In this document: positions 20,690 to 54,026 of the stretch, one piece after another
Numbering within the stretch: the first letter of the stretch is position 1
Layout of the letters: each line of letters starts with the position of its first letter
Origin: Cytophagales bacterium
GTDB lineage: Bacteria > Bacteroidota > Bacteroidia > Cytophagales > Microscillaceae
NCBI GenBank assembly: GCA_013298075.1
Contig: JAAFJG010000012.1
Location: 1 to 64,000, forward strand
DNA length: 64,000 bases
Direction: 5' to 3'
Program-made: the position numbers and the translations under genes
The notes under the pieces: model-generated
Told to the model about the DNA's origin: nothing
Databases searched by the model: none
Seen by the model: only the letters and a program-made list of their open reading frames with translations

Positions 20690-22273
20690 ATGAAAAAAGA
20701 ATTTAACGATACAGGTGTTTGTATAGAAGACGAACATTTTATGGTCAATACGACTTCAAAAAATGAACAGATTTTTGAAATGATTGAGCGTAAAAAATAT
20801 TTTATTATGAATCGTCCTCGTCAATTTGGAAAAACGACGGCTTTATATCGTTTACATCAAGAGTTATTAACCAAAGATGACTATTTAACAATTTTATTGA
20901 GTTTTGAGGGGAGTAGTGATGATGTTTTTAAAGAGGCTGATATTTTTTGTGTTTATTTTGTAGCAATGTTTAATGATGAATTAAAATTAAGTTATCCCAA
21001 TCAACAAGTTTTTATTGACCAAGACTTTCAGACAATTAAAATTGGTTTTGATAAATTATCTTTACAAATTACTGATTTTATGCAAAAAGTGCAAAAAAAG
21101 GTAGTGGTTTTGATTGATGAAGTGGATAAATCGACTAATAATCAACTATTTTTACACTTCTTGGGTATGTTGCGTGATAAATATTTGAAAAGAAATCTGA
21201 GTACACAATTAACATTTCATTCGATTGTTCTGGTAGGAATTCACGATATAAAAACCATTAAATTAAAACTTCGTCCTGATGAAGAGAAGAAATTTAATAG
21301 TCCTTGGAATATTGCCGTAGATTTTAAAGTAGATATGTTTTTTAATCCTGCCGAAATCTCAACAATGTTGGAGCAGTATTCACAGGAAAAAAATATAAAA
21401 ATGGATATTGAAAAACTCTCAGAACGCATTTTTTATTATACTTCTGGCTATCCATTTTTAGTCAGTAAAATGTGTAAAGTCATCGATGAAATATTATTAC
21501 CAAAAAAAGAAAATCAGACAGAATGGGATTTAGAAGATATAGAAAATAGCTTTAAATATTTAGTAAAAGATAATTACACCACAACTATTTTTGATGATTT
21601 GACAAAAAATGTAGATAATAATCCAAAGTTAAAAAATTTATTGACTAATATTTTAATGAAAGGTTTAAAAGTGCCTTTTGTGGTATCAGACGAAACGATT
21701 TCATTGGGACAAATTTATGGAATGTTGGATATTGATGACAGATATTGTAAGATTCATAATCGTATTTTTGAGCAAAAATTATACAGTCATTTATTGGCTG
21801 GAATGATTATAAACGGCGATTATGACCATATAAATATCCTAAGTGATGTGTATTCGAGTCCAAAAGGTACGTTGGATATGCCTAAAATTTTGCGTAAATT
21901 TCAAGAATTTATGAAAGAAAATTATAGTAAAAAAGATGCAGAATTTATCGAGAGAGAAGGTCGTTTGATATTTTTATCATTCTTAAAACCAATTATTAAT
22001 GGGCGTGGTTTTGATTTTAAAGAACCCAATATTGGCGAAGAAAGAAGAATGGACATCGTGATTACTTACACAACAAATATCTATATTTTAGAATTAAAAA
22101 TTTGGCGAGGTGAAAGTTATCATCAAGAAGGTTTAGAACAATTAAGCAATTATTTAGATTTTTATAATAAAAAAGAAGGCTTTTTATTGATTTTTAATTT
22201 TAATCAAAAGAAAGAATTTAAAGAAGAAAATATCGAATTTGGAGATAAAAATATTTTGGCGATTTGGGTTTAA
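20690..22273 (+). CDS. AAA-ATPase-like/PD-(D/E)XK fusion, array copy 2
   Basis: A 527-residue paralogue of copy 1 with identical architecture: Walker A RPRQFGKTT near residue 46, Walker B VVVLIDEVDKS near 142, and RMDIVITY...ILELKIW near 454-470. Regions 72-125 and 300-380 differ from copy 1, while the Walker, sensor and nuclease blocks are almost unchanged. Its own promoter is TATATTTG at 20660-20667. Its first about 220 bases and the stretch before them back into the copy 1 tail are repeated almost exactly at copy 3. The intergenic gap is 48 bases, so the array genes may be read separately or by readthrough. Confidence 0.85.
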   Translation: MKKEFNDTGVCIEDEHFMVNTTSKNEQIFEMIERKKYFIMNRPRQFGKTTALYRLHQELLTKDDYLTILLSFEGSSDDVFKEADIFCVYFVAMFNDELKLSYPNQQVFIDQDFQTIKIGFDKLSLQITDFMQKVQKKVVVLIDEVDKSTNNQLFLHFLGMLRDKYLKRNLSTQLTFHSIVLVGIHDIKTIKLKLRPDEEKKFNSPWNIAVDFKVDMFFNPAEISTMLEQYSQEKNIKMDIEKLSERIFYYTSGYPFLVSKMCKVIDEILLPKKENQTEWDLEDIENSFKYLVKDNYTTTIFDDLTKNVDNNPKLKNLLTNILMKGLKVPFVVSDETISLGQIYGMLDIDDRYCKIHNRIFEQKLYSHLLAGMIINGDYDHINILSDVYSSPKGTLDMPKILRKFQEFMKENYSKKDAEFIEREGRLIFLSFLKPIINGRGFDFKEPNIGEERRMDIVITYTTNIYILELKIWRGESYHQEGLEQLSNYLDFYNKKEGFLLIFNFNQKKEFKEENIEFGDKNILAIWV

Positions 22274-22321
22274 TTTGAAAGGAAAAATACGTATATTTGC
22301 AAAAAATAAATCATTAAAACT

Positions 22322-23905
22322 ATGAAAAAAGAATTTAACGATACAGGTGTTTGTATAGAAGACGAACATTTTATGGTCAATACGACTTCAAAAAATGAAC
22401 AGATTTTTGAAATGATTGAGCGTAAAAAATATTTTATTATGAATCGTCCTCGTCAATTTGGAAAAACGACGGCTTTATATCGTTTACATCAAGAATTATT
22501 AACCAAAGATGACTATTTAACAATTTTATTGAGTTTTGAAATAAGTACTGATAATTTTTTTGAAGATGCTGATAAATTTTCTTTTTATTTCATCGAAAAA
22601 TTTAATGATGAATTAAAATTAAGTTACCCAAATCAAGAAATTTTTTTACATAAAAAATTTAAAACAAATAAAACAGGATTTGAAAAACTATCCTTGCAAA
22701 TCACTGATTTTGTTCAAAAAGTAGGAAAAAAAGTAGTTGTTTTGATTGATGAAGTGGATAAATCGACTAACAATCAATTATTTTTACATTTTTTAGGTAT
22801 GTTAAGAAATAAATATTTAGATAGAAATTTGGGAAATCGACCAACTTTTCACTCCGTTGTATTAGTTGGGATTCACGATATAAAAACCATCAAATTAAAA
22901 CTTCGTCCTGATGAGGAAAAGAAAATAAATAGTCCTTGGAATATTGCTGTAGATTTTAAAGTCAATATGTTTTTCAATCCTGCAGAAATTTCGACAATGT
23001 TGTTGCAATATTCACAAGAAAAAAATATACAAATGAATATTCAAAAACTCTCAGAACGTCTTTTTTATTATACTTCTGGTTATCCTTTTTTGGTGAGTAA
23101 AATGTGTAAAGTGATTGATGAAATATTACTACCTGAAAAAGAAAATCAGACAGAATGGGACTTGACAGATGTAGAAAATAGTTTTAAATATTTAGTAAAA
23201 ATAAATTATACCACTACCATTTTTGATGATTTATTTAAGAATATAGAAAACAATAAAGACTTGTATGATTTGACAAAAGACGTTGTCATCAATGGTTTAA
23301 AATTACCTAATAATGCCAATGATTACTTGATAGAATTAGCAAATACGTATGGAGTTTTTGATAGAGATGCAGAATATTGTAAAATCAATAATCGTATTTT
23401 TGAGCAAAGAATGTACTTATTTTTTACGACACAAGCCATTAGAAAACACGAATATAGACCTAATTTTTTACTATCAGATTCATATACTTCGATAGATAAT
23501 ACGTTAGATATGCCTAAAATTTTGCGTAAATTTCAACAATTTATGCTCGAAAATTACAACCAAAAAGATGCGGAATTTATTGAAAGAGAAGGACGTTTGT
23601 TGTTTTTATCTTTTTTAAGACCGATTATAAATGGCGTAGGTTTTGATTTCAAAGAGCCAACAGTGGGTGAGGAAAGACGAATGGATATTGTGATAACGTA
23701 TATGAAAGTTTTGTATATTTTAGAATTAAAAATTTGGAGAGGCGAAAGTTATCATCAAAAAGGTTTAGAACAATTAAGCGAATATTTAGACTTATACAAC
23801 AAAAAAGAAGGCTTTTTATTGATATTTAATTTTAATCAAAAAAAGGAATTTAAAGAGGAAAATATCGAATTTGGAGATAAAAATATCTTAGCCATTTGGG
23901 TATAA
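22322..23905 (+). CDS. AAA-ATPase-like/PD-(D/E)XK fusion, array copy 3 (mosaic)
   Basis: A 527-residue paralogue that is a mosaic of its neighbours. From the preceding intergenic region to about base 22537 it equals copy 2 apart from one base. Bases about 22540-22835 are unique. From about 22837 (encoding PTFHSVVLVGIHDIK) to about 23855 it is identical to copy 1 (19573-20591) for roughly 1 kb. The Walker and PD-(D/E)XK motifs are intact, so it is probably functional. Its promoter TATATTTG is at 22292-22299. The mosaic is direct evidence of recent gene conversion or unequal crossing-over within the array. Confidence 0.85.
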   Translation: MKKEFNDTGVCIEDEHFMVNTTSKNEQIFEMIERKKYFIMNRPRQFGKTTALYRLHQELLTKDDYLTILLSFEISTDNFFEDADKFSFYFIEKFNDELKLSYPNQEIFLHKKFKTNKTGFEKLSLQITDFVQKVGKKVVVLIDEVDKSTNNQLFLHFLGMLRNKYLDRNLGNRPTFHSVVLVGIHDIKTIKLKLRPDEEKKINSPWNIAVDFKVNMFFNPAEISTMLLQYSQEKNIQMNIQKLSERLFYYTSGYPFLVSKMCKVIDEILLPEKENQTEWDLTDVENSFKYLVKINYTTTIFDDLFKNIENNKDLYDLTKDVVINGLKLPNNANDYLIELANTYGVFDRDAEYCKINNRIFEQRMYLFFTTQAIRKHEYRPNFLLSDSYTSIDNTLDMPKILRKFQQFMLENYNQKDAEFIEREGRLLFLSFLRPIINGVGFDFKEPTVGEERRMDIVITYMKVLYILELKIWRGESYHQKGLEQLSEYLDLYNKKEGFLLIFNFNQKKEFKEENIEFGDKNILAIWV

Positions 23906-23943
23906 AATGATTACATTTACAAGAAAATAAAACAATTAAAACT

Positions 23944-25527
23944 ATGAAAAAAGAATTTAACGACACAGGCGTTTGCATCAAAGATGAACATTTTATGGTG
24001 GATACTACTTTAAAAATTGAAAATATTTTTGAGTTGATTGAACGTAAAAAATATTTTATTATGAATCGTCCACGTCAATTTGGAAAAACGACTGCTTTGT
24101 ATCGTATATATGAAGAATTATTAGCCAAAGATGACTATTTAACAATTTTATTGAGTTTCGAAGGAAGTGGCGATGATATTTTTAAAGATGCTGATGTTTT
24201 TGGAGCTTACTTTGTAAGAATGTTTAATCGTGAATTAAAAACAAGTTATCCCAATCAACAAATCTTACTTGATCAAGATTTTGAAACTACCGAGAGAGGT
24301 TTTGAAAAACTATCTTTACAAATCACAAATTTTATGCAAAAAGTAGCAAAAAAAGTAGTTGTTTTGATTGATGAAGTGGACAAATCAACCAATAATCAAT
24401 TATTTTTACACTTTTTGGGAATGTTGCGTGATAAATATTTGAAAAGAAATTTAAGTAGTCAACCTACTTTTCATTCCGTTGTGTTGGTTGGGATTCACGA
24501 TATAAAAACCATTAAATTAAAATTACGTCCTGATGAAGAAAAGAAATTTAATAGTCCTTGGAATATTGCTGTAGATTTTAAGGTGGATATGTTTTTTAAT
24601 CCTATTGAAATTTCAACTATGTTGTTGCAATATTCAACAGAAAGAAATATAAAAATGAATATTCAAAAACTCTCAGAACGTCTTTTTTATTATACTTCTG
24701 GTTATCCTTTTTTGGTGAGTAAAATGTGTAAAGTGATTGATGAGATTTTATTACCCAAAAAAGAAAATCAATTAGAATGGGATTTAGAAGACGTAGAAAA
24801 TAGTTTTAAATATTTGATAAAAGAAGATTATGTAACGACCATTTTTGATGATTTAGCAAAGAATTTAGAAAATAACAGAGAATTATATCAAACAACCAAA
24901 GATATTATTTTTAACGGAGCAAAAATTCCTTTTAATTTGAGTGAACCTATGATCTCGCTCGGACACGTGTACGGAATTTTTGATAAAGATGAAAGATATT
25001 GCAAAATTCATAACCGAATTTTTGAGCAAAAAATTTATTTGCATTTTTTAGCAACAATGATTCGATTGCGTCAGCATAGTCAAATCAATGATTTGGCTGA
25101 TGTGTATTCCACCTACGAAGGTACATTAGATATGCCAAAAATCTTGCGTAAATTTCAAGAATTTATGAAAGAAAATTATAGCCAAAAAGATGCAGAATTT
25201 ATCGAGAGAGAAGGAAGATTGATATTTTTATCATTCCTAAAACCAATTATTAATGGGCGTGGTTTTGATTTTAAAGAGCCCAATATTGGCGAAGAAAGAA
25301 GAATGGACATCGTAATCACTTACACAACAAATATCTATATTTTAGAATTAAAAATTTGGCGAGGCGAAAGTTATCACCAAAAAGGTTTAGAACAATTAAG
25401 CGAATATTTAGACTTATACGACAAAAAAGAAGGCTTTTTATTGATTTTTAATTTTAATCAAAAGAAAGAATTTAAAGAGGAAAATATCGAAGTGGGTGAT
25501 AAAAATATCTTAGCCGTTTGGGTGTAA
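23944..25527 (+). CDS. AAA-ATPase-like/PD-(D/E)XK fusion, array copy 4
   Basis: The last full copy of the array, 527 residues, with Walker A RPRQFGKTT, Walker B VVVLIDEVDKS and the C-terminal RMDIVITY...ILELKIW nuclease-like motif intact. Its segments at about residues 72-125 and 300-390 are unlike copies 1 to 3, while its nuclease end is closest to copy 2. The promoter box is weaker here, TACATTTA at 23912-23919, so its expression may be lower or depend on readthrough from copy 3, whose stop is 38 bases upstream. A gene-tail relic follows immediately after the stop. Confidence 0.85.
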   Translation: MKKEFNDTGVCIKDEHFMVDTTLKIENIFELIERKKYFIMNRPRQFGKTTALYRIYEELLAKDDYLTILLSFEGSGDDIFKDADVFGAYFVRMFNRELKTSYPNQQILLDQDFETTERGFEKLSLQITNFMQKVAKKVVVLIDEVDKSTNNQLFLHFLGMLRDKYLKRNLSSQPTFHSVVLVGIHDIKTIKLKLRPDEEKKFNSPWNIAVDFKVDMFFNPIEISTMLLQYSTERNIKMNIQKLSERLFYYTSGYPFLVSKMCKVIDEILLPKKENQLEWDLEDVENSFKYLIKEDYVTTIFDDLAKNLENNRELYQTTKDIIFNGAKIPFNLSEPMISLGHVYGIFDKDERYCKIHNRIFEQKIYLHFLATMIRLRQHSQINDLADVYSTYEGTLDMPKILRKFQEFMKENYSQKDAEFIEREGRLIFLSFLKPIINGRGFDFKEPNIGEERRMDIVITYTTNIYILELKIWRGESYHQKGLEQLSEYLDLYDKKEGFLLIFNFNQKKEFKEENIEVGDKNILAVWV

Positions 25528-28714: not shown

Positions 28715-29362
28715 ATGAAACCTTTTGAAAAGTGGAAAACAGAAGAAGTAGAGCGTACTTTTAATGTGAAGTTTTTGCGCAGTATGCCCTTGATGAAAGA
28801 TTGGATACAATTTCAGCAAGACCTTACGCCCAGAGAAGAAGAACAAGCCGATTTTTGTCGGGAAAGACTACGAGATTATATAGATTTTTGGAATGAAGAA
28901 GATATGAAAATGTTTTTCATATCTCCTATTTTACAAATAATTGATTTTTATGTATTTGAAAAGTACAGAATATTCATGGAAGCGACTTTGGAAGCTAATA
29001 TTTTAGATGTTCAAAATAATCCGTGTGTTTTACGAGGAAGAGTGGAAATGGTAATAGCTACAGGCAAACAAGACCCACAAACACCTTTCTTTTTCTTGAA
29101 TGAATATAAGGCTCAAAGGAAAATCATCGCAGATCCCAAAGGGCAACTTTTAATTGCTATGCTTACCGCACAAGCAAAAAACAATGGTATGAATTTACCT
29201 ATTTATGGGTTATATAACATTGGGCAACTTTGGTTTTTTGTTATCGTGGCGGGCAAGGAATATACTACCAGCAAAGCCTTTGATGCTACTGATAAAAATG
29301 ACCTCAAACAAATTATCAATATGTTGCAATACGTAAAAGCACATATTGAACGAAATATTTGA
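28715..29362 (+). CDS. Small PD-(D/E)XK-like protein, trio copy 1
   Basis: A 215-residue protein of the same family as the genes at 9246 and 11819. It has FWNEEDMKMFFISPILQIIDFY (about residues 58-79; E61/E62), GRVEMVIATG with E111, FFFLNEYKAQ with E130-x-K132, then DPKGQLLIAMLTAQ and a conserved tail ending QYVKAHIERNI. The C-terminal 110 residues are nearly identical among the three tandem copies; residues about 14-60 are variable. The first metal-binding position is glutamate, not aspartate, so catalytic competence is uncertain. Function unknown. Its own promoter precedes it and a hairpin follows it. Confidence 0.6.
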   Translation: MKPFEKWKTEEVERTFNVKFLRSMPLMKDWIQFQQDLTPREEEQADFCRERLRDYIDFWNEEDMKMFFISPILQIIDFYVFEKYRIFMEATLEANILDVQNNPCVLRGRVEMVIATGKQDPQTPFFFLNEYKAQRKIIADPKGQLLIAMLTAQAKNNGMNLPIYGLYNIGQLWFFVIVAGKEYTTSKAFDATDKNDLKQIINMLQYVKAHIERNI

Positions 29363-29380
29363 AAATTTTAGATAAAAAAA

Positions 29381-29420
29381 TAGAATTTTTGAGTATCTAA
29401 AAAATACTCAAAAAATTCTA
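29381..29420 (+). terminator. Hairpin after nuclease-like trio copy 1
   Basis: TAGAATTTTTGAGTAT at 29381-29396 pairs with its near-perfect complement at 29404-29420. Related hairpins follow copies 2 (30197-30233) and 3 (31010-31048). The element is part of the duplicated unit and probably acts as terminator of each gene. Confidence 0.6.
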
Positions 29421-29530
29421 ACCAAAAAATATTTTTGTCTTTCTCAATCTTTAAGCGTAATTTTTTTAATAAGATATTTTGTGAAATGCTTAAAAATTTG
29501 TAAATTTGCAACAAAATAAAATATAAAAAT

Positions 29531-30178
29531 ATGAAACCTTTTGAAAAGTGGAAAACAGAAGAAGTAGAGCGTACTTTTGGGATTAAATATTTAGAAAATA
29601 TGCCTTTGATGCAAAATTGGCTGCAATTCCAACAAGATTTAACGCCTGAAGAGGAAAATATTTCTGAAAAATTACGATTATTTTTACAAAGACTCGCTAA
29701 CTTTTGGAATGAAGAAGATATAAAAGTATTTTTTATCATCCCTATTTTACAAATTGTAGATTTCTACGAATTTGATAAATATCGTACCTTCATGGAAGCA
29801 ACTATAGAGGCTAATCTTACAGATGCTCAAAATAATCCTTGTACACTTCGAGGCAGAGTTGAGATGGTAGTTGCTACGGGCAAACAAGACCCACAAACAC
29901 CCTTCTTCTTTCTAAATGAATATAAAGCACAACGAAAAGTGGTAACAGACCCACAAGGGCAGTTATTAATTGCTATGCTTGCTGCACAGGCAAAAAACAA
30001 CGGTATGAATTTGCCTATTTATGGCTTGTATAACATTGGACAAATTTGGTTCTTTGTTATTTTGGCTGGTAAGGAATATACTACCAGCAAAGCATTTGAT
30101 GCTACGGACAAAAATAATCTCAAACAAATTATCAATATGTTGCAATACGTAAAAGCACATATTGAAAGAAATATTTGA
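29531..30178 (+). CDS. Small PD-(D/E)XK-like protein, trio copy 2
   Basis: A 215-residue paralogue lying exactly one unit (816 bases) downstream of copy 1. It shares MKPFEKWKTEEVERTFG and the whole C-terminal half with the neighbours, including GRVEMVVATG, FFFLNEYKAQRK and DPQGQLLIAMLAAQ. It differs in residues about 18-60 (for example KYLENMPLMQNWLQFQ). The residues corresponding to E111, E130 and K132 are conserved. It has its own TAAATTTG promoter at 29502-29509 and a trailing hairpin at 30197-30233. The role is unknown; a nuclease or recognition role is inferred from the fold pattern. Confidence 0.6.
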   Translation: MKPFEKWKTEEVERTFGIKYLENMPLMQNWLQFQQDLTPEEENISEKLRLFLQRLANFWNEEDIKVFFIIPILQIVDFYEFDKYRTFMEATIEANLTDAQNNPCTLRGRVEMVVATGKQDPQTPFFFLNEYKAQRKVVTDPQGQLLIAMLAAQAKNNGMNLPIYGLYNIGQIWFFVILAGKEYTTSKAFDATDKNNLKQIINMLQYVKAHIERNI

Positions 30179-30344
30179 AAAGTATTAGATAAAAAATAGA
30201 ATTTTGAGTATCTAACAATACTCAAAAATTCTAATCAAAAAATATTTTTCTTTTTCTCAATTTTTAAGCGTAATTTTTTTTAATACAATATTTTGTGAAA
30301 TCCTTAAAAATTTGTAAATTTGCAACAAAATAAAATATAAAAAT

Positions 30345-30992
30345 ATGAAACCTTTTGAAAAGTGGGAAACCGATGAAGTGGAAAGAGTTTTTGGTATTGA
30401 CTCTGTCAAAAATATGCCTTTAATGTTGGATTGGCTTCAATTTTCGCAACCTCTCACACCCAAAGAAGAAGAAAAAGCGGAAGAATTACGCCTTTTTTTG
30501 GAAGAATTTGCGTCTTCTTGGAACGAAGAAGATATGAAAGTATTTTTTATAGTGCCTACTTTGCAAATAGTCAATTTTTATGCACATAAAAAATATCGCA
30601 CTTTTATGGAAGCTACCTTAGAAGCAAATCTTACAGACGCACAAGGCAACCCATGTACCTTGCGAGGAAGAGTGGAAATGGTGGTAGCCACAGGTAAGCA
30701 ACGTCCTCAAACACCTTTTTTCTTTTTGAATGAATATAAGGCACAACGTAAAGTAGTAACAGACCCAGAAGGACAAGTATTGATAGCAATGCTTGCCGCA
30801 CAAGCCAAAAATAATGGTATGAATTTACCTATTTATGGATTGTATAATATTGGACAATTCTGGTTTTTTGTTATCTTGGCAGGAAAGGAATATACTACCA
30901 GCAAAGCATTTGATGCTACTGACAAAAATGACCTCAAGCAAATTATCAATATGTTACAATACGTAAAAATACATATTGAAAGAAATATTTAA
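30345..30992 (+). CDS. Small PD-(D/E)XK-like protein, trio copy 3
   Basis: A 215-residue paralogue 814 bases after copy 2. The N-terminal MKPFEKWETDEVERVFG and variable segment (DSVKNMPLMLDWLQFSQPLTP) differ from copies 1 and 2, while LRGRVEMVVATG, FFFLNEYKAQRK, DPEGQVLIAMLAAQ and the tail are shared. The codon choice inside the shared blocks also differs from the other copies, so the amino-acid conservation reflects selection and not only recent conversion. It has its own promoter box at 30315-30322. A hairpin and then the mtaB promoter follow. Confidence 0.6.
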   Translation: MKPFEKWETDEVERVFGIDSVKNMPLMLDWLQFSQPLTPKEEEKAEELRLFLEEFASSWNEEDMKVFFIVPTLQIVNFYAHKKYRTFMEATLEANLTDAQGNPCTLRGRVEMVVATGKQRPQTPFFFLNEYKAQRKVVTDPEGQVLIAMLAAQAKNNGMNLPIYGLYNIGQFWFFVILAGKEYTTSKAFDATDKNDLKQIINMLQYVKIHIERNI

Positions 30993-37614: not shown

Positions 37615-40600
37615 ATGATTGAAACACTTAAAAAGCGATATAAAGTAGGCGATAACATAACCTTACATATCAATGAGATTTCATCTTTTACAGGTGTAAT
37701 TGATAGTTTTGAGGATACTTGTGTAATTTTGGTAACAGAAGTAGGTGAAGAGTATATTCTTAATGACACAATTAAACGTATATCGGTTTCTAAATCAATA
37801 AGTGAAAATAAAGAAACTAATCAATCAATAATTGAAGAAAAAATTAATATAAATATTATTGAAAAATTACCTGAGATTGAAAAAGTTGAAGTTTCTATTA
37901 ATAAAATACAAACTTTACCTATTAATAAAGAATATAAAATAGGTGATAAAATTCCATTAGAAGAACTTGAAAGATTAACTACTCAAGAAGAAAGACGTTT
38001 ACAAGTAAAAAAGGCTAAACAGCAATATAAGGAGGAGAATAAAGAAAATAGTAATGTACCAATAATTATTAAAGACTCTTCAAAATTAATTGAGTTTATT
38101 TTACCAGAAATTGAAACAGAAAACAAAAAAATAGTTTCCGCAAACGGAACAATAACTAAATATTTTGGTGATAGAAATTTTGGTTTTCTAACTGATAAGT
38201 TTGGTTATGAAATTTGGTTTGGATTTAATAGTATCATTGATAAAAATCTACTTGAATCTTTAATAGGCACAGTTACAAGAGCAAATATTCCTGTACTTTT
38301 TACTTTGGCTAAGAACTACAAAGGCGAATCAGCCATACATATACACAAACCAAAAACTGTTGAACAGGTTATTCAACTTACAAAACAATACTTTGAAAAA
38401 GAAAATAAATCTGATACAGCACTTGGACTGGTTGAACAAATTTTGTTTTCTTACCCCGAAAACTATACAGCAATAAAACTTAAAGAAGAAATAGAGCAAA
38501 AAAGATTTAAACAGCCAACTTTTAAATCTACTTTGAAAAGTTACGATTTTAACTATCAAAAAGCAGTAAGATCAAAAAATATTGATAAAAATTATAAGGG
38601 TGCATTAAAGTATTATTTGACAGCCTTTGAAAATAATGAAAAAAGAGAAGCTTGTATTAAAGATATAGGAATGCTTTACGTTTCAATGGGCGAAACTAAA
38701 AAAGCAGTAGAATTCATCAACAAATACGAAAATGAGTTACCTAACAGCATAACTACATACAACTATTTAGAAAACTTTTATGCATCAGTCAAAGATTTTG
38801 AAAAGGTTTTAGAATATACAGAACTATTACTTGAAGAAAAATCTGTAATTAATGATAAACGTAAAAACTCAATGTATTTGTCAAAAAAAGGATTTGTATT
38901 GATTCAACTAGAACAACTAGACGAAGCAAGGGAAGTTTTAGAAGAAGCCATAAGTATTCATGCTGAAAACACCTATGCAAATCGCCTTTTGCAAGCGCTT
39001 GAAGAAGCAAATATTTCAGGAGATTTTAAATTATTTAATCAACTTATAGAATCAACCAATGTTTTAAGTTTTTATGGAGGATTTAGCAGTTATATTCAAA
39101 CTATCATAAATCAATCAGAATACTATGGTTTAAAAGAGTCTGTCAAGTTAAAAGAAGTTTTTACATTAGAACATCTTTCTCAACTAAGAGAAGATAGTAA
39201 AAAAATAACTGAAGGAAAACCAAGAGAAAGGGCAAAATATCTTTTAACAGAAGCAAAATTACTACAAGAAATTGAACCTGAAAAAGATGAAGAGATTCGT
39301 TCTGTATTAGCAAGACACTGTAATGCAATGGGAATCAGTGGAATTTATGATAATTTCTCTGCTGATGTCGTTAGGTTTTACTACTTTGAATCGTTCAATT
39401 TGGAAGATAAATGGGACAGTATAATTAGACAATTTATTATTTACTTGGATTCATATTCTAAAAACTTTCCTGAACTAAGGCGAATAACGGCTCGGGAAAT
39501 TAGGGAACTTTTTACTGAAGTATTTCCAAAATCAATACAATATCTACATAACAATAATCCTACTATATATGAAGAATTGCTAACTCTCTTTGTTAATAAT
39601 ACAACTATTTCAGATAAAGTGTCACACGCCATCTATAACGACAAGAAAGTACTGAATGCCATTGTAAATTATTTTAAAATTCCAAGTAATAATACTTCTT
39701 CTTTTGAATTATTTTATAAACAGATAAATATACTGAGAGAAAAAAGGCAGCAAGAAATATATAAATGGTTTGCTATAAATAAAGCTATAATTTCTAATGA
39801 AAATATAGGGACACTTATTAATGTATTATACACTTCCTTAGAAACAAATAAGGTGATTTGGCTGCCACAACTTGACTCGTTCAGACTAAATACAATATTG
39901 AGTAATGTCTATGAATCATTAAATCAATATTTGCGAGAATCAGGTTACAGAGATCAAGAACGAAGTTATAAAGTAACAAAATCTCAAATTAATCAACTAA
40001 TTACCGAAATTAAAGAAAAACCGACTAAATTTTCTTATGAAGGCTTTATTCCGTTACTTGAAAAAATTGAATATCTATTAGAAAAATCTTTTAAGGATGT
40101 AGAATCTGCGAGTAGTCCAAAAGTTGAAATTTCCATTTTAGGAGAAGCCAATGTTCTTGGGAATGATAACATAATACCTTTTCAATTAAAGGTTGAATCG
40201 TCTAAAAATTCTTCACCTATTCGCAATATCAAAATAATGGTACAAAATACCAATGATGTTTCTTTTATTGAAAAAAATAATGAATATTCTGATGATTCAA
40301 TTGATGGAGGTGAAAACCACATTTTTAATATTTCTGTAAAAGTATCAAGAAAAATTGCAACTGAAAAAGCAACATCTATTAACGTTACTTGTTTTTACAA
40401 TAATCATACAGAAGATGAGCCTATTAAGTTAGAAAGACAACTTTCATTGCGCCTTTATTCTGAAAATGAATTTGAGATAATTCCAAATCCGTATGAAAAG
40501 TTAGCGAATGGGGGACCTGTTACAGATAGAAGTATGTTTTACGGTAGAAATGAGTTTATTGATAGAATTACAGAAGCAATTATCTCAACAAATTCTAAGC

Positions 40601-41658
40601 AGGTAGTTATTTACGGTCAAAAACGTTCAGGAAAATCTTCCGTTTTATATCATTTACAAAAAAGTTTAGAAGACACTCAAAAGACTTTTTGTGTTTCATT
40701 TAGTATCGGAGAAATTTTTGAAAATATATCATCGGCAACTTTTTTCCATAAAATACTTTTTACGATAGAAGAAGAATTAGAAAATCTTGCCTATAATGGC
40801 ATAGAAGTGCCAACTTTTAAATGTCCTCCATACGTAGAACTTAAAGATGCTCTAAATTCGGCAGATGTATTTAGGAAATACCTTCGGGATTTTAAACGTA
40901 TTTGTCAGAATACACCTAATTGGCAAGATAAGAAATTAGTGGTGATGATAGATGAGTTCACGTATTTATACACTGCTATAAAAGAAGGTAAAGTTTCTGA
41001 TGCTATTATGAAACAGTGGAAAGCAATCACTCAAAATGAGGACGCAAACTTTTCTTCTGTTTTAGTTGGACAAGATGTTTTTCCTTTATTTAAAAGTGAA
41101 TTCCCTAATGAGTTTGGCATTACACAAGACGAAAGGCTAACATATCTCTCAAAAAGAGATGCGCTAAAACTTATTGACGAACCCGTTTGGAATACAAAAT
41201 CAAATAAAAGTCGCTATTTAGAAGATGCAATAGAAAAAATCATAGAGTACACGTCTTGTAATCCATATTACATACAAATTTTTTGTGCAAGGCTAATAAA
41301 AGAAATGAATGATAAAAAATTCATTGAGTCCACAAGAAGTGATATTAAACCTATTGCAGATAGTTTTTTGTCTGGTGGGCAAGCATTGACAAATGACAAA
41401 TTTGATAATTTGCTAAATGCAGGTGAAAAATACGATATTCAACATATTCCACAAGAGTATTCAAAAGCAGTTTTGAAAAAAATTGCAGAGGCAACTAAAT
41501 TTGTTGCTTATTGCTCACGTGAAGATATAACTATAGGAAATAAAGAATATGAAGACCTAATTCTTGAAGACCTTAAAAATAGAGAAGTCATTGAACAGCA
41601 AGAAAATAATTACAAGATACAAGTTAAACTTTTTCAAGAATGGTTATTAAAGAACTAA
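37615..41658 (+). CDS. Large cold-shock-like/TPR/beta-sandwich/P-loop NTPase protein
   Basis: A 1,347-residue multidomain protein. Visible parts: small beta motifs at the N-terminus; a cold-shock/S1-like domain at about 177-248 with RNP-like NFGFLTDKFGYEIWFGFNSI; helical TPR-like repeats at about 250-500; an unassigned helical region to about 850; a CARDB-like beta-sandwich at about 860-965; and a P-loop NTPase with Walker A GQKRSGKSS near 1010, Walker B LVVMIDEFTY near 1125, and a C-terminal winged-helix-like region. The FYGRNEFIDRI start and the ATPase type resemble STAND/Orc-like NTPases of conflict systems. It overlaps the next gene by 19 bases, so the two are translationally coupled. Nucleic-acid sensing is inferred. 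Confidence 0.7.
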   Translation: MIETLKKRYKVGDNITLHINEISSFTGVIDSFEDTCVILVTEVGEEYILNDTIKRISVSKSISENKETNQSIIEEKININIIEKLPEIEKVEVSINKIQTLPINKEYKIGDKIPLEELERLTTQEERRLQVKKAKQQYKEENKENSNVPIIIKDSSKLIEFILPEIETENKKIVSANGTITKYFGDRNFGFLTDKFGYEIWFGFNSIIDKNLLESLIGTVTRANIPVLFTLAKNYKGESAIHIHKPKTVEQVIQLTKQYFEKENKSDTALGLVEQILFSYPENYTAIKLKEEIEQKRFKQPTFKSTLKSYDFNYQKAVRSKNIDKNYKGALKYYLTAFENNEKREACIKDIGMLYVSMGETKKAVEFINKYENELPNSITTYNYLENFYASVKDFEKVLEYTELLLEEKSVINDKRKNSMYLSKKGFVLIQLEQLDEAREVLEEAISIHAENTYANRLLQALEEANISGDFKLFNQLIESTNVLSFYGGFSSYIQTIINQSEYYGLKESVKLKEVFTLEHLSQLREDSKKITEGKPRERAKYLLTEAKLLQEIEPEKDEEIRSVLARHCNAMGISGIYDNFSADVVRFYYFESFNLEDKWDSIIRQFIIYLDSYSKNFPELRRITAREIRELFTEVFPKSIQYLHNNNPTIYEELLTLFVNNTTISDKVSHAIYNDKKVLNAIVNYFKIPSNNTSSFELFYKQINILREKRQQEIYKWFAINKAIISNENIGTLINVLYTSLETNKVIWLPQLDSFRLNTILSNVYESLNQYLRESGYRDQERSYKVTKSQINQLITEIKEKPTKFSYEGFIPLLEKIEYLLEKSFKDVESASSPKVEISILGEANVLGNDNIIPFQLKVESSKNSSPIRNIKIMVQNTNDVSFIEKNNEYSDDSIDGGENHIFNISVKVSRKIATEKATSINVTCFYNNHTEDEPIKLERQLSLRLYSENEFEIIPNPYEKLANGGPVTDRSMFYGRNEFIDRITEAIISTNSKQVVIYGQKRSGKSSVLYHLQKSLEDTQKTFCVSFSIGEIFENISSATFFHKILFTIEEELENLAYNGIEVPTFKCPPYVELKDALNSADVFRKYLRDFKRICQNTPNWQDKKLVVMIDEFTYLYTAIKEGKVSDAIMKQWKAITQNEDANFSSVLVGQDVFPLFKSEFPNEFGITQDERLTYLSKRDALKLIDEPVWNTKSNKSRYLEDAIEKIIEYTSCNPYYIQIFCARLIKEMNDKKFIESTRSDIKPIADSFLSGGQALTNDKFDNLLNAGEKYDIQHIPQEYSKAVLKKIAEATKFVAYCSREDITIGNKEYEDLILEDLKNREVIEQQENNYKIQVKLFQEWLLKN

Positions 41659-43244
41659 ATATAGAAAACCCCTTTGCAGATAATGCTGCAATTGTAATAA
41701 GCGAACGTTTTGTTGGTAGAAAATTCGAAATAAATGAAATACGTACAAGAGTACTTGGTGAACTATATGGTAATTTGGCTATTGTCGGGCTACCACGAAT
41801 TGGCAAATCAAGCCTTGTATGGAACAGTCTAATTCCACTAAAAGACAAATTATTACAAGAAAAGCATATTATTGCGTATATTTCAATAAGTTCAGGCGAC
41901 AATGCTATCAATTTTTTTAAAGGTTTATCTTCTGCTATCCTTGAAGAAATAGAATTTGAGAATGAGTTATTTGACATATATGAAAGATTAAAAAATATCT
42001 ATAATGACATTAAACTTAATCAAAATGATAGATTTGAATTTTTGAATCACGTAAAAAAATTTTTTAAGTTTTGTAAAAAGGGTAATATTCGCACAACTTT
42101 TATTCTTGACGAATTTGATTATTCAGAAAGAATATTTACGGTGGCAGATTTTCAGTTTTTAAGAGAACTTTCAACACTCCCAGAAACAAAAGTTTGTCTT
42201 GTAACTATTTCAAGACGTACAATTCAAGAATTAGAACCTGAAAATGGAGCTATTTCTAATTTTTATGGTGTTTTTTCATACCTTCATTTGCAATTATTTA
42301 ATGATGTTGATTTAATTGCTTATTGGGAGAGGCTTAAGAGTTTGGGAATTGAAGTTTCGGAAGAGTATAAAAAAGATGTTTATTATTTTATAGGTAGTCA
42401 CCCATATTGGTTAGATATGGTAAATTATCATATTTTCAATAGAATTAAGTCCGATAATAAAACTAGTATTAATTTATTATCAGGAATTAGTACCGACCTG
42501 AAGAATATATTTTGGAATAACTACGATAATATTATTTCCTTAATGGATAAGGAAGGACTAAAAAGTCATTTTATACAAGCAGTAGTTGGACCCGTTTTGA
42601 ATCTTACTCAAATGAGTATAGAAAGATTGACTAAATACGGTTTAGTTCAATCAGTTTCAGCACGTGAAAAGTATGGTACGTACTTTCAAACATTAATTAA
42701 TGCAGGTTTAGTGAAAGAAGGTGATATTTCGTATAATTCTATTTCAATACACTTAGATGATTATCTCAGACAGAAAGAAATAGAATTTGATATTTGGCCA
42801 CTGTGGAATGAAGCAGAACATCAAGTTCGCAACTTAATCACAGTTCACTTGAAAGGAAAATATGGTGAAGATTGGCGAAATAATTTTGTTACTAAAAACC
42901 CAAGGCAAGAAGACAATATTAAAAAAATGGAACAAGTGAGAGATTCCAACATACATCGCTTTGGAACATTAGCTTCTAATGAATTAGTTCGTTATACATA
43001 TCCATTAGATATGTGGGATACTTTCATTACTTCAGATTGGACATGGTTTCAAGTTATCTTCAAGAATAATAAATCAGATTGGCAAATAAAATTCTCTTTG
43101 CTTGCAAAAATAAGAAACCCCATTTCACATAGTAATAAAGATTTTGTATTACAAGATACCCTAACTAAAGCAAAAGAAATTTGTAATGAAATTATTGAAA
43201 AAATTAAAATTTGGGAAAATAGTATAATTAGACTGCCTGAATAG
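41640..43244 (+). CDS. P-loop NTPase with C-terminal HEPN (Swt1-like) domain
   Basis: A 534-residue protein with FVGRKFEINEIR, Walker A GLPRIGKSS at residues 50-58 and Walker B TTFILDEFDYSE around D157-E158, an ATPase of the same broad type as its upstream partner. The C-terminal about 140 residues are helical. They carry KIRNPISHSNKD with an RX4H motif (R492, H497), the signature of HEPN ribonucleases such as Swt1-type domains. Conserved upstream context includes EAEHQVRNLI and RDSNIHRFG. The gene overlaps the first gene by 19 bases. Predicted function: an ATPase-controlled RNase acting with the large sensor-like partner. This is inference from domain logic and no partner such as an antitoxin is evident. 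Confidence 0.7.
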   Translation: MVIKELNIENPFADNAAIVISERFVGRKFEINEIRTRVLGELYGNLAIVGLPRIGKSSLVWNSLIPLKDKLLQEKHIIAYISISSGDNAINFFKGLSSAILEEIEFENELFDIYERLKNIYNDIKLNQNDRFEFLNHVKKFFKFCKKGNIRTTFILDEFDYSERIFTVADFQFLRELSTLPETKVCLVTISRRTIQELEPENGAISNFYGVFSYLHLQLFNDVDLIAYWERLKSLGIEVSEEYKKDVYYFIGSHPYWLDMVNYHIFNRIKSDNKTSINLLSGISTDLKNIFWNNYDNIISLMDKEGLKSHFIQAVVGPVLNLTQMSIERLTKYGLVQSVSAREKYGTYFQTLINAGLVKEGDISYNSISIHLDDYLRQKEIEFDIWPLWNEAEHQVRNLITVHLKGKYGEDWRNNFVTKNPRQEDNIKKMEQVRDSNIHRFGTLASNELVRYTYPLDMWDTFITSDWTWFQVIFKNNKSDWQIKFSLLAKIRNPISHSNKDFVLQDTLTKAKEICNEIIEKIKIWENSIIRLPE

Positions 43245-43269
43245 TTTTATTCAATAAAACAAAATTTTC

Positions 43270-43388
43270 GATGCCGTCACAAATTCGTTGCAAAAAAATA
43301 TAATTTTAAAAGAAAATACAGTCATTAAGTATTTTTGATTTTAAAGTAAAGAATAAAAATAAAGTTGCAACGAATTTAGGACAACATC
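43270..43388. mobile_element. Miniature transposon-like element M1, copy 2
   Basis: 119 bases with inverted ends related to those of 26104-26218: GATGCCGTCACAAATTCGTT on the left and AACGAATTTAGGACAACATC on the right. The interior differs from copy 1, so only the ends are conserved, as expected for MITEs. It lies between the HEPN-NTPase gene and mrdA, in the upstream region of mrdA. Confidence 0.6.
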
Positions 43389-43453
43389 AAAAAAAAAATT
43401 GTTTTTTTAATCATTTTAGTTACTTTTGCACATACATATAACGCATAAAAAAA

Positions 43454-46252: not shown

Positions 46253-46765
46253 ATGATTGAATTAATACAAGGTGATATTACAAAAATTGCAGTTGATGCG
46301 ATTGTAAATGCCGCAAATTCTTCTTTGTTAGGAGGTGGTGGAGTTGATGGAGCAATTCATCGGGCTGGCGGTGGGGAAATTTTGGAAGAATGTATAAAAA
46401 TTCGAAATAGACAAGGCGGTTGTAATACGGGCAAAGCAGTCATCACAACGGCGGGAAGATTGCCTGCAAGTTTTGTGATTCATACGGTAGGTCCAATTTG
46501 GCATAATCGCCCTGAACAAGCAAAAGATTTAGCAAATTGTTATGAAAATTCATTGCAATTAGCCGTAGAAAATGGTTGCAAAACGATTTCTTTTCCAAAT
46601 ATTAGCACAGGAGTTTATCATTATCCAAAAAAAGAAGCAGCACAAATTGCGATTCAAACTACTCAAAAATTTTTATTTGAGAATGAAAATGCTCTCGAAA
46701 AAGTTATTTTTGTTTGTTTTGATGAAGAAAATTTTGATATTTATGAAGAAATATTAGCCATTTAA
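46253..46765 (+). CDS. Macrodomain ADP-ribose hydrolase (O-acetyl-ADP-ribose deacetylase type)
   Basis: A 170-residue single macrodomain of the YmdB/AF1521 type, expected to bind ADP-ribose and hydrolyse O-acetyl-ADP-ribose or ADP-ribosylated proteins. Conserved loops are [20 protein letters not shown] at about residues 18-37, [16 protein letters not shown] at about 65-80, and [18 protein letters not shown]. It lies 6 bases after panB; no ADP-ribosyltransferase gene is nearby, so no toxin-antitoxin reading is justified from this window alone. Confidence 0.92.
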
Positions 46766-49797: not shown

Positions 49798-49817
49798 CAG
49801 AAATAAATATTATAAAA

Positions 49818-52800
49818 ATGAAATTACTAATAAATAATATCAACAAATCTTTAAATAAATCTTATTTATCACAATCTTTATTTATGAATGAAGTAGATTT
49901 GTTTAAAACCAATTTTCTAAACCTTTTGAAACTTATTCAAAATAATGATAGCGAAGAAACTTTGAAAGATTATATTCACGATTTTTTTAAAAATACTTAT
50001 TATAAAGGAAAATTTGCTACCAAAGAAAATTTTAATTTAATGGATTTAGTAATTTTAAATGGTAAAAATAGTGATGATTCTGTTGGAATAATTATCGAAA
50101 CTAAATCAATCAAAAATACTTCAGAGATGATTTCTGTTACTGATGTAAACAAAAAAGCATTTTATGAAATAGTACAATATTATTTAGAAGAAAGAATTAT
50201 CAAGCAAAATATAGAAATTAAACATTTAATTATTACTAATTCTGTGGATTGGTTTATTTTTGATGCTCAAGTATTTGAAAAAATATTTTATCAAAATAAA
50301 TCATTCCAAAAAAAATATATTGATTGGTATGATGGAAAATTAGTAAGTAAAAATAAAGATTGGTTTTATAATGAAATAGCCAAACCTTTTATTCAAAATG
50401 AAAATGATAATATCGAATGTACTTATTTTCAAATTTCAAAAAATGCGATTGATACAGAAAAAGATTTAATCGCTTTATATAAAATATTTTCCCCTGAACA
50501 TCTTTTAAAATTATCTTTTCAAAACGATAATAACACCTTAAATTCTACTTTTTACAACGAACTTTTATATATTATTGGTTTGCAAGAAGTAAAAATAAAT
50601 AGTGTCAAACGAATTGAAAGATTGCCAACCAAAGACAGACAAGAAGCAAGTTTATTAGAAAATATAATCAATATTTTGCAAGTAGATGAAACTTTACAAC
50701 AAATCGAAAACCCTGAAAAATTTGGCGAAAATGAAGAAGAACAATTATTTAGTCTTGCTTTAGAATTGTGTATTACTTGGCTGAATAGAATTTTATTTTT
50801 AAAATTATTAGAAGGACAATTATTAAAATATAATCAATTTGATAACAATTATTTATTCTTAAATTATCAAAAAGTAAGAGATTTTGAAGAATTAAGAGAA
50901 CTTTTTTTTGAAGTATTAGCCACCAGACCTGCAGAAAGAAAATCAAACTTACAAAATAAATATCAACACGTTCCGTATTTGAATAGCTCATTATTTGAGC
51001 AAACAACCTTAGAAAAACAAACCGTTAAAATCAATCAACTTAAAAATCATATCGAAATTAATGTATATAATGGTACAATTTTAAAAAATCAAAATAGTAA
51101 AAAAGTGATAGGCAAAAAACCTATTTTACAATATTTATTCGCATTTTTGGATAGTTATAATTTTGCGAGCAACACAGAAGCAACGATTCAAGAAGCAAAC
51201 AAAACAATTATTAATACGTCTGTTTTAGGTTTAATTTTTGAAAAAATAAACGGCTATAAAGATGGAAGTTATTTTACGCCCAGCTTCGTAACTATGTATA
51301 TGTGTAGAGAAACGATTCGAAAAGCAATAGTAGCAAAATTCAAATCACACCAAAAATTCAAAAATGTTAATAATTTTATAGATGTTTATAATCTTATTCA
51401 TACTATTTCTTTGATAGAGGCAAATCAAATTTTTGATTCGATTAAAATATGCGACCCAGCCGTTGGAAGTGGACATTTTTTGGTTTCTGCTTTGAATGAA
51501 CTGATGGCTATAAAATCTGATTTGGGAATTTTGATAGATAAAGAAGGAAAATTATTGAGAGATGTAAATATTGAAGTGATTAATGATGAATTGTTTATTT
51601 CAGTAGCAGGCGAACTTTTTAGTTATCATTTTAAAAATCCACAAAGCCAACGCATACAAGAAACTATTTTTTATGAAAAACAAAATCTTATCGAAAATTG
51701 TTTATTTGGCGTAGATATTAATCCAAAATCAGTCAATATTTGTCGATTGCGTTTGTGGATAGAATTGCTTAAAAATGCGTATTATACGCACAAAAGCAAT
51801 TTTTTAGAATTAGAAACGTTACCCAATATTGATATTAATATTAAATGTGGCAATTCTTTGGTCAGTCATTTTCCTTTGAATAATAACGATAAAGGACAAT
51901 CTTTGCAGTTTTTTACACAAAAATATAAACAAGCAGTAGCAGATTATAAAAATACAAATGATAGAAATGCTAAACGGGTTTTAGAAGGATTTATCAAAGA
52001 ACAAAAACAAAATTTTGCTCGAACTATTTTACCTAATGACGAAGACTTAAAAAATATCAAAAAAATAGAACACGAAATGGGTTCGATGCCTATGTTTTTT
52101 AGTGAAAAAGATAAATCAAATTGGAAAACAAGACTCGAATTATTAGAACACGAACGAAATATATTACAAAGTAAATATGAAGAAAAACTAAAAACGGTTT
52201 ATTATGAGGCGTTCGAATGGCGTTTTGAATTTCCCGAAATATTAGATAATAACGGACTATTTATAGGTTTTGATGTGTTGATAGGCAATCCACCTTATGG
52301 AGTTTTGCTTACCAAAAGTATGACAGATTATTTTATATTTCATTATCAAAGTTCAAAAACGATTACAAAAGTACAAAAAGGTTCGACAGATACTTACGTT
52401 TTGTTTATAGAAAGGGCTTTATCTTTGTTAAAAAAAGATGGATTTACTCATTTTATTGTCCCTATTTCTATTACTTGTAGCGATTCGATGGTTTCTTTAC
52501 ATAAAATATTAGAACAAAATTGTGAAACTATCAAAATATCTTCTTACGCAGTGCGTCCTCAACCTATTTTTGATAATGCTGTGGTAGATGTTTCGATTGT
52601 TGATTTACATAAAACTAACACACCTTGTAAACAATTACTTTCTACTAAAATGTATCGAAAAAATAAAGCTATCGATGGCAATAAATTAATGAATAATTTG
52701 GCTTTTGTTGATGTGTTGCATACAAAATTGAAAGGACGAATTCCAAAAATAAGCTTAGAAATTGAACAAAGAATTTTAAATAAATTGTTACAAATCGAGC

Positions 52801-53324
52801 ATAAAATTACCGATGAAATAGTAGAAGTAAATGATAAAAAAATCTATTATCGTGCAGCAGGCGGGAGATATTTTAAAGTAGTTACTAATTATTCGACTTA
52901 TTCATCAGCAGAAAAATTTTTACGTCTTTCTCTTAAAAATGCGGATATAATTGGAGCAATTTTAAGTAGTAATTTATTTTTTTGGTACTATCAAATTTTT
53001 TCGGATAATAGAAATTTGAAATTATCAGAAATATTATTATTTCCTTTTCCTATCAAACTTTTTTCTGCTTCAGAAATCAAACAAATTAAAGCAATTTATG
53101 CCAAATATTTGATTGATATTGAAAAAAATGCACTCACAAGAGAAACCAAAAAATACAAAAATATAGATTCATTTAAGGAATATAAAATTAAAAAATCTAA
53201 ACATTTAATCGATAAAATTGATGATATAATTGCCAATGCTTATGGACTTGATGCAGAAGAATTATTATTTATCAAAAATTGCGATATAGAATTTAGGATT
53301 CAAGAAGAAGAAAATGAAGATTAA
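49818..53324 (+). CDS. Single-chain type IIG-like restriction-modification enzyme
   Basis: A 1,168-residue protein combining an N-terminal PD-(D/E)XK nuclease (D76 in LMDLVIL, E94-x-K96 in IIIETKSI) with an Eco57I/N6-adenine methyltransferase domain: motif I DPAVGSGHFLVSALNEL near residue 546 and motif IV DVLIGNPPYGVLL near residue 824. A C-terminal region with LRLSLKNADIIGAILSSNLFFWYY is a likely target-recognition domain. This is the plan of type IIG/BREX-PglX-like enzymes; I favour IIG because nuclease and methylase are in one chain and no brx genes are adjacent. It should cut unmodified foreign DNA and methylate the host. Long enough to be complete. Confidence 0.8.
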   Translation: MKLLINNINKSLNKSYLSQSLFMNEVDLFKTNFLNLLKLIQNNDSEETLKDYIHDFFKNTYYKGKFATKENFNLMDLVILNGKNSDDSVGIIIETKSIKNTSEMISVTDVNKKAFYEIVQYYLEERIIKQNIEIKHLIITNSVDWFIFDAQVFEKIFYQNKSFQKKYIDWYDGKLVSKNKDWFYNEIAKPFIQNENDNIECTYFQISKNAIDTEKDLIALYKIFSPEHLLKLSFQNDNNTLNSTFYNELLYIIGLQEVKINSVKRIERLPTKDRQEASLLENIINILQVDETLQQIENPEKFGENEEEQLFSLALELCITWLNRILFLKLLEGQLLKYNQFDNNYLFLNYQKVRDFEELRELFFEVLATRPAERKSNLQNKYQHVPYLNSSLFEQTTLEKQTVKINQLKNHIEINVYNGTILKNQNSKKVIGKKPILQYLFAFLDSYNFASNTEATIQEANKTIINTSVLGLIFEKINGYKDGSYFTPSFVTMYMCRETIRKAIVAKFKSHQKFKNVNNFIDVYNLIHTISLIEANQIFDSIKICDPAVGSGHFLVSALNELMAIKSDLGILIDKEGKLLRDVNIEVINDELFISVAGELFSYHFKNPQSQRIQETIFYEKQNLIENCLFGVDINPKSVNICRLRLWIELLKNAYYTHKSNFLELETLPNIDINIKCGNSLVSHFPLNNNDKGQSLQFFTQKYKQAVADYKNTNDRNAKRVLEGFIKEQKQNFARTILPNDEDLKNIKKIEHEMGSMPMFFSEKDKSNWKTRLELLEHERNILQSKYEEKLKTVYYEAFEWRFEFPEILDNNGLFIGFDVLIGNPPYGVLLTKSMTDYFIFHYQSSKTITKVQKGSTDTYVLFIERALSLLKKDGFTHFIVPISITCSDSMVSLHKILEQNCETIKISSYAVRPQPIFDNAVVDVSIVDLHKTNTPCKQLLSTKMYRKNKAIDGNKLMNNLAFVDVLHTKLKGRIPKISLEIEQRILNKLLQIEHKITDEIVEVNDKKIYYRAAGGRYFKVVTNYSTYSSAEKFLRLSLKNADIIGAILSSNLFFWYYQIFSDNRNLKLSEILLFPFPIKLFSASEIKQIKAIYAKYLIDIEKNALTRETKKYKNIDSFKEYKIKKSKHLIDKIDDIIANAYGLDAEELLFIKNCDIEFRIQEEENED

Positions 53325-53594: not shown

Positions 53595-54026
53595 ATGAAA
53601 ACGAAAGAAAATATTACTATACAAGAGCAAAAAATTGCTTCTGAATCTCAAAAGGTAATCAATAAAATCTTACAAAAATATTCAACAAAAGAAAATAAAA
53701 GTTTTTTTATTCATTTTGAAAATGAAAAAGATGAGATTGAAATTCCATATATTGTATTAAAAGCCACATTAAACTATATAAATGTGATTTTGACATCTCA
53801 AAATAAAGAAATAACTACACAAATATTGGCTGATATGCTTAATGTTTCTCGTCCTTATGTGGTTAAATTGCTCGAAAATGGCGAAATTCCATACAAAAAA
53901 GTAGGGAAACATCGTAGAATTATGTATGATGATGCCTTAATTTACAAAGAAAAACAACAAAATGAACGCCTAAAAAATCTTGAGATTTTGGCTCAACAAG
54001 CACAAGAATTTAATTTAGGTTACTAA
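53595..54026 (+). CDS. Excisionase/antitoxin-like HTH DNA-binding protein (no adjacent toxin)
   Basis: A 143-residue protein with a C-terminal winged HTH: ITTQILADMLNVSRPYVVKL and IPYKKVGKHRRIMYDDALIY, typical of the excisionase-type HTH_17 family. Such proteins are often antitoxins encoded just upstream of a PIN-domain RNase. No PIN gene follows here; the next gene is an unrelated 129-residue protein. It lies inside a segment flanked by 48-base direct repeats, suggesting it was carried in as a module or that its toxin has been lost. DNA binding is well supported; its target is not. Confidence 0.75.
   Translation: MKTKENITIQEQKIASESQKVINKILQKYSTKENKSFFIHFENEKDEIEIPYIVLKATLNYINVILTSQNKEITTQILADMLNVSRPYVVKLLENGEIPYKKVGKHRRIMYDDALIYKEKQQNERLKNLEILAQQAQEFNLGY

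Follow-up and report, generated by a model that had tools for sequence, protein, structure and literature searches.

In a 64,000-nucleotide stretch of DNA from a Cytophagales bacterium (contig JAAFJG010000012.1, henceforth the window), two overlapping plus-strand genes, P1 and P2, form a real coupled two-gene module, a conclusion well supported by their co-occurrence, correlated evolution, transfer and defence-type neighbours at several loci. We think it probable that this module is a mobile two-protein sensor-effector conflict system, probably anti-phage, that would act by activating a Swt1-like HEPN ribonuclease (RNase). A preliminary description of the window had placed two overlapping genes of 1,347 and 534 residues here, and both open reading frames (ORFs) lie exactly at those positions, the 3' end of P1 overlapping the start of P2 by 19 nt on the same strand. 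A chance ORF pair was considered and rejected, and an Rfam scan of the locus found no RNA gene. Single-sequence Pfam scans recognised tetratricopeptide repeats (TPRs) but gave only sub-threshold scores for the ATPases and HEPN_Swt1, so the claim needed homologues: we used 10 for P1, spanning most of its length and drawn from four phyla, and 15 for P2. The features of the pair, including those seen in AlphaFold2 (AF2) models, are as follows.

37615..41658, plus strand: P1, putative sensor/ATPase gene, 1347 residues (ORF)
37615..37800, plus strand: P1 residues 1-62, probable Sm/Lsm/Hfq-like N-terminal domain (profile search)
38137..38355, plus strand: P1 residues 175-247, cold-shock (OB-fold) domain (profile, Pfam, AF2)
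38359..39024, plus strand: P1 residues about 249-470, TPR helices (Pfam TPR families, AF2 helices)
39025..40119, plus strand: P1 residues 471-835, family-specific helical domain (AF2 helices)
40120..40464, plus strand: P1 residues 836-950, beta-sandwich (seven strands in AF2)
40519..41364, plus strand: P1 residues 969-1250, ORC/STAND-type ATPase (Walker A at residue 1001, Walker B at 1109-1114)
41452..41655, plus strand: P1 residues 1280-1347, winged-helix-like tail (three helices and two strands in AF2)
41640..43244, plus strand: P2, putative ATPase-HEPN effector gene, 534 residues (ORF, 15 other homologues)
41697..42419, plus strand: P2 residues 20-260, ORC/STAND-type ATPase (Walker A at residue 50, Walker B at 152-158, invariant SR at 191-192)
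42561..42788, plus strand: P2 residues 308-383, winged-helix-like domain (AF2 secondary structure)
42798..43229, plus strand: P2 residues 387-530, Swt1-like HEPN domain (Pfam PF18731, PADLOC, AF2, alignment)
43113-43115 and 43128-43130, plus strand: codons of P2 R492 and H497, the RX4H motif (IRNPISH)

The assignment of P2 as an effector turns on its C-terminus, which the preliminary description had read as ending in a HEPN RX4H motif (R492, H497). Indeed, HEPN_Swt1 (PF18731) matches 14 of the 16 members of the P2 family (best 2.6e-9), and the arginine and histidine are invariant in all 16 aligned sequences. P2 of the window, taken alone, scores 0.005 against PF18731, below the cut-off, and is matched by the PADLOC model PDC-M34B at 3.5e-6. 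An AF2 model built from the 16-sequence alignment (mean predicted local distance difference test score, pLDDT, 85.6) comprises the ATPase, the winged-helix-like part and a C-terminal helical bundle. The HEPN region of this model is all-helical with pLDDT mostly above 80, and the RX4H motif sits between its last two long helices (478-492 and 505-530). Foldseek gave no separate match for the C-terminal HEPN part. Profile, motif and helical model thus uphold a HEPN fold at the C-terminus, and the invariant residue pair argues for HEPN catalysis in P2. In one homologue (L040, 9968-11869) P2 carries an extra C-terminal extension of about 80-100 residues, beta-rich and possibly cold-shock-like in look, in which a Pfam scan found no match.

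The Walker motifs, said earlier to look intact in both proteins, are present and conserved. P2 has a P-loop, GLPRIGKSS, at residue 50 and LDEFD at 156, kept in 15-16 homologues, and P1 has GQKRSGKSS at residue 1001 and IDEF at 1112, kept in 11 P1 sequences. Pfam matches to AAA_22, ATPase_2, AAA_16 and nSTAND occur across the P2 homologues, and Foldseek relates the P2 ATPase to 2fna (1.7e-6), to ORC/Cdc6, to the plant NLR NRC3 and to EfAvs5 (9.9e-4). The P1 ATPase matches ATPase_2 (1.8e-6) and nSTAND1 (4.4e-5) in Pfam and 2qen in Foldseek (E 3.2e-9, template modelling score on the target 0.72), followed by ORC, CED-4 and the NLR RPP1. Both proteins therefore combine the features of a STAND protein, namely a P-loop, an ORC/STAND-type fold and a trailing winged helix (Pfam, AF2, Foldseek), in a split arrangement rather than a one-chain layout, with the sensor-like parts on P1 and the effector on P2. 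The two ATPases are, moreover, homologous to each other (hhalign probability 98, E 2.6e-13), which makes a P1-P2 hetero-oligomer plausible. At the place of the invariant SR motif of P2 the alignment has GQD in P1, a difference that, speculatively, may reflect an asymmetric ATPase arrangement.

P1 is built as would be expected for a sensor, with a variable N-terminal part and a conserved ATPase and winged helix. Among homologues, mean identity reaches 0.47 for the ATPase and 0.42 for the winged-helix region (1251-1347), compared with about 0.2-0.3 elsewhere, and the segment before the TPRs differs most from one homologue to the next, both in length and in content. Residues 1-62 form a probable Sm/Lsm/Hfq-like domain on moderate evidence: a seven-sequence profile finds the Hfq-like Asl2047 in the PDB at 4.6e-4 and Lsm, SmD1 and Hfq at 0.01-0.02, and single members match Hfq (0.0017), LSM (0.0028) and Hfq_1 (0.0067) in Pfam. 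Other small-barrel families score here too, making the fold class firmer than the family. The cold-shock-like fold, the TPR-like helices and the beta-sandwich of the preliminary description were all borne out. A profile of the central segments of six homologues matches the cold-shock protein 2k5n of the PDB at 2.9e-7, Pfam CSD is found in 2 of 11 P1 homologues (best 3.5e-5), and AF2 predicts five strands over residues 175-247. Pfam TPR families match the helices that follow, and the seven strands of the sandwich occupy residues about 837-948 of the model. Between these two, residues 471-835 vary little in length among homologues (349-373 residues) and have no Pfam assignment. The AF2 model of P1 spans residues 148-1347 with a predicted template modelling score of 0.54, and the relative placement of its domains is unreliable. 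The earlier reading had overlooked the Sm/Lsm/Hfq-like domain, the winged-helix-like segment that trails each of the ATPases, and the fact that these ATPases are homologous to each other.

If the two proteins act together, their genes should keep company across genomes. Of 146 related genomes only three have both genes: that of the window, G001 from its own genus and G101 from its order. When 395 genomes sampled from the phylum were searched, a full-length copy of P2 or of the P1 core turned up only in the genome of the window. A search with an alignment of three P2 sequences, covering one genome for each species, yielded 15 loci, including L031 (from G101) and L042 (from G001), the remainder coming from further Bacteroidota, Sulfurovum, a further member of the Campylobacterales, and Spirochaeta, Chloroflexi and Rhodocyclaceae bins. 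This search was seeded on two short motifs, so that 15 is a lower bound, and nearly all of the genomes are metagenome bins. P1 lies directly upstream of P2 in 11 of the 14 loci that can be judged (the window, L030, L031, L033, L035, L036, L038, L040, L041, L042 and L044), in Bacteroidota, Campylobacterota, Spirochaetota and Chloroflexota; at L032 and L043 a contig end truncates the locus. The 19-nt overlap recurs in six of these (the window, L030, L031, L033, L035 and L036), with 34 nt in L042, 4 nt in L044 and a gap of a few bases in L040 and L041. Over the 11 loci with both genes, the distance matrices of P1 (residues 790-1347) and P2 are correlated (r = 0.82, permutation p 1e-4). Frequent separation of the genes was thus not seen, though a clade with P2 only does exist (L034, L037 and L039, support 100/100). 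A P1 profile search of the two genomes with P2-only loci found no P1, and P1 without P2 was never found in the related genomes, the phylum sample or the P2-only genomes. At L031 (3-3685) the frame of P1 is interrupted by a stop at 575, with the next start at 650, and P2 is intact, reflecting either decay or a sequencing error.

These pairing data bear on a toxin-antitoxin-like reading, in which P2 would be a HEPN toxin that P1 mainly keeps inactive, to be released on loss or titration of P1. The tight overlap with the HEPN gene last fits such a pair, and HEPN toxins are generally known to be common in two-gene modules (PMC3710099). However, the well supported P2-only clade implies that P1 is no required antidote there, and the rule that a type II toxin always comes with its antitoxin does not hold for P2. 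P1 is also far bigger than usual antitoxins and has a conserved ATPase of its own, both ATPases of the pair being conserved. We consider this reading unlikely.

Patchy occurrence together with lateral transfer is the pattern expected of a defence system, and both are seen here. P2 of the window shares 74% identity with a copy from Saprospiraceae and only about 30-31% with the copy of the same-genus genome G001, whereas the neighbouring penicillin-binding protein 2 (PBP2) gene is 45% identical to that of the Saprospiraceae genome and 93% identical to that of G001. This contrast is a clear indication, as far as sequence comparison goes, that the pair has been transferred laterally, moving as a unit between distant bacteria. 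Similarity between G001 and the window starts 63 bases upstream of the PBP2 gene, and the module of G001 is located elsewhere. Between P2 and the PBP2 gene lies a 129-bp element resembling a miniature inverted-repeat transposable element, bounded by imperfect 29-nt inverted repeats (43265-43393); it ends where the similarity to G001 starts (about 43391), and related pieces account for 56 matches in the genome. At L035 (5070-12331) the pair stands between a gene for an ABC-transporter ATPase and one for a permease, with gaps of 18 and 3 bases, a tidy insertion into what looks like an operon.

Defence-type genes accompany the module at several loci. At L036 the pair is directly preceded by a MkoA-like helicase gene and directly followed by a WYL-domain gene, at L040 a WYL gene again lies just downstream, and at L038 a PLD-helicase gene is nearby (3.8e-235). 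L044 has, just upstream of P1, a gene with an NYN ribonuclease-type domain and EAD11 (4012-5028), a possible second effector; an EAD11 domain sought in P1 of this locus as its match was not found. In the window, a type IIG restriction enzyme-methyltransferase gene (49815-53321, PADLOC 3.1e-197) lies 6.5 kb downstream of the pair. The very patchy distribution (3 of 146 relatives, and a full-length copy in 1 of 395 genomes of the phylum) and the lateral transfer are unlike a core stress function and, like such neighbours, speak against an RNA quality-control or stress-response machine, acting for example in translation or cold stress, whose Lsm-like and cold-shock domains would bind cellular RNA for the HEPN domain to cut. 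The RNA-binding-type domains of P1 and the location of some copies among housekeeping genes would suit such a machine, which nevertheless strikes us as improbable. A housekeeping complex was considered and rejected, none having been matched by the pair.

A relative of the pair was found in an operon of the Acinetobacter ursingii plasmid NZ_MH220285, which encodes a type I R subunit, a protein joining methylase, specificity (S), beta-sandwich and ATPase parts, and, in an overlapping gene, a P2-like ATPase. The C-terminus of the methylase-specificity protein corresponds to the P1 core (beta-sandwich, ATPase and winged helix; hhalign E 3.5e-20), and the second protein to the ATPase core of P2 (E 7.9e-12). 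The operon thus resembles the window in both cores and in its overlapping genes, and differs in having methylase and specificity domains in place of the sensor part; HEPN_Swt1 was sought in the C-terminus of the P2-like protein and gave no match. A P1 core on a methylase-specificity protein, beside a P2-like ATPase, points to a conserved ATPase pair able to take on different sensors, on the evidence of one plasmid group (three Acinetobacter ursingii records). More tentatively, and with some doubt, we raise the idea that two homologous ORC/STAND ATPases encoded by separate genes form a general chassis for defence. The first gene would bear exchangeable sensors, Lsm-like, cold-shock and TPR parts in the window and methylase and specificity domains in Acinetobacter, and the second an effector, in the window the Swt1-like HEPN domain. 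The version in the window would then be a branch devoted to RNA surveillance, in which recognition of abnormal RNA sets off the HEPN RNase. Matches to the ATPase core on Rhodococcus plasmids, examined as further cases, are single ATPases beside a PLD-family gene, without a pair, and lend this idea no support.

The same operon invites another reading: the HEPN domain might bind RNA without being catalytic, and the pair might be an accessory to DNA-directed restriction, as in the Acinetobacter combination of a methylase-ATPase with a second ATPase. The homologous core in a type I restriction-modification-like operon would agree with this, as would the eukaryotic Swt1 HEPN domain, which is thought to be inactive (PMC3710099). 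Set against it are the catalytic-type R and H, kept throughout the P2 family, and the window itself, where no methylase or restriction subunit adjoins the pair. We hold this reading to be very improbable.

We therefore favour a sensor-effector conflict system, in which P1 would be the sensor, its Sm/Lsm-like and cold-shock domains binding RNA (or single-stranded DNA), its TPR, helical and beta-sandwich parts providing a scaffold or surfaces for recognition, and its ORC/STAND-type ATPase acting as a nucleotide switch. On sensing an abnormal nucleic acid or ribonucleoprotein state linked to infection, the ATPases of P1 and P2 would assemble as a hetero-oligomer and draw the HEPN domains together. 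Known HEPN RNases are active as dimers. Paired HEPN domains of P2 could build a composite active site from their R-X4-H motifs and cleave cellular RNA, leading to dormancy or death, and the pair accordingly looks like an infection-response (suicide or dormancy) system. The preliminary description had already proposed a sensor-effector conflict system; its coupled module with a HEPN effector is well supported, while the anti-phage defence function and the RNase activity of P2, like RNA as the trigger and hetero-oligomer formation, are what we infer.

Several points weigh against this proposal. The support is computational throughout. The cold-shock segment, aligned in six of nine full-length P1 sequences, is lacking in the other three, so that RNA sensing through it would not be universal. 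Three P2 genes, in two genomes, persist without P1, and shared descent accounts for part of the P1/P2 distance correlation. Comparison of P2 with plasmids and phages, and of both proteins with viral contigs, gave nothing close and no evidence of phage carriage. Neighbours are mostly ordinary or housekeeping-like at L033, L034, L035 and L042, and the genes adjacent to the pair in the window are mostly ordinary too, with the type IIG gene 6.5 kb off. Finally, no characterised defence system matched the pair, PDC-M34B being a candidate family that covers the HEPN part only.

How new is this arrangement? A survey by Anantharaman et al. (2013) lists Swt1-like HEPN domains with STAND ATPases, TPRs and S1 domains, mostly predicted to be active, with Npun_F6454, MED222_16016 and Desac_1927 as examples, and mentions HEPN-STAND proteins with cold-shock-like domains (PMC3710099). 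The kind is therefore not wholly new, and the earlier statement that the architecture matches no named defence system stands, as far as searched, for named and tested systems but not for the kind. Compared by description, the listed proteins share with the pair the HEPN family, a STAND-type ATPase, TPRs and an OB-fold RNA-binding domain, but are listed as fusions, whereas here the parts are divided between two genes, the ATPases are two and homologous, and a beta-sandwich and an Lsm-like domain are present as well. Searches of open-licence papers yielded no description of the P1-P2 pair. The DUF499-ATPase/HEPN systems with methylase and helicase (Hma, 'BREX-related' type 1; PMC12839542) are a parallel from defence in which a Swt1/Abi2-type HEPN is likewise joined to an ORC/Cdc6-STAND ATPase, but they have an N-terminal HEPN, one ATPase, and methylase and helicase partners; neither a methylase nor a helicase lies beside the pair in the window. 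Avs and other bacterial STAND immune proteins share the ATPase switch and an effector, as the Foldseek match of P2 to EfAvs5 illustrates, but have all three parts, sensor, ATPase and effector, on a single chain. We rejected an Avs identity, since no Avs profile matched the pair and PADLOC gave only mad8, CSD_V and PDC-M34B. The best fold matches of both ATPases are ORC/Cdc6 and SSO1545/PAB2304-type archaeal ATPases, and ORC is likewise built of paralogous ATPases with winged helices; these are, however, replication initiators or archaeal ATPases of unknown role, without HEPN. If our proposal is right, the STAND immune proteins of bacteria would include, beside those made of one chain, a split two-ATPase design in which a sensor that binds RNA acts on an RNase, and an ORC-like heteromeric ATPase design would be linked to bacterial immunity.

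Further genes of the window deserve mention. A small helix-turn-helix gene follows the type IIG gene at 53595. Three tandem ORFs of 527 residues each (20690-25527) resemble a local gene amplification; the first, the only one scanned, encodes an AAA ATPase with a PD-(D/E)XK-like C-terminus. Another tandem set comprises three 215-residue ORFs (28715-30992), the last two closely similar and the first matching a PD-DExK model of CRISPR-associated proteins (2.8e-10). A macro-domain gene of the ADP-ribose family (46253-46765, 3e-48) lies next to a panB-like gene.

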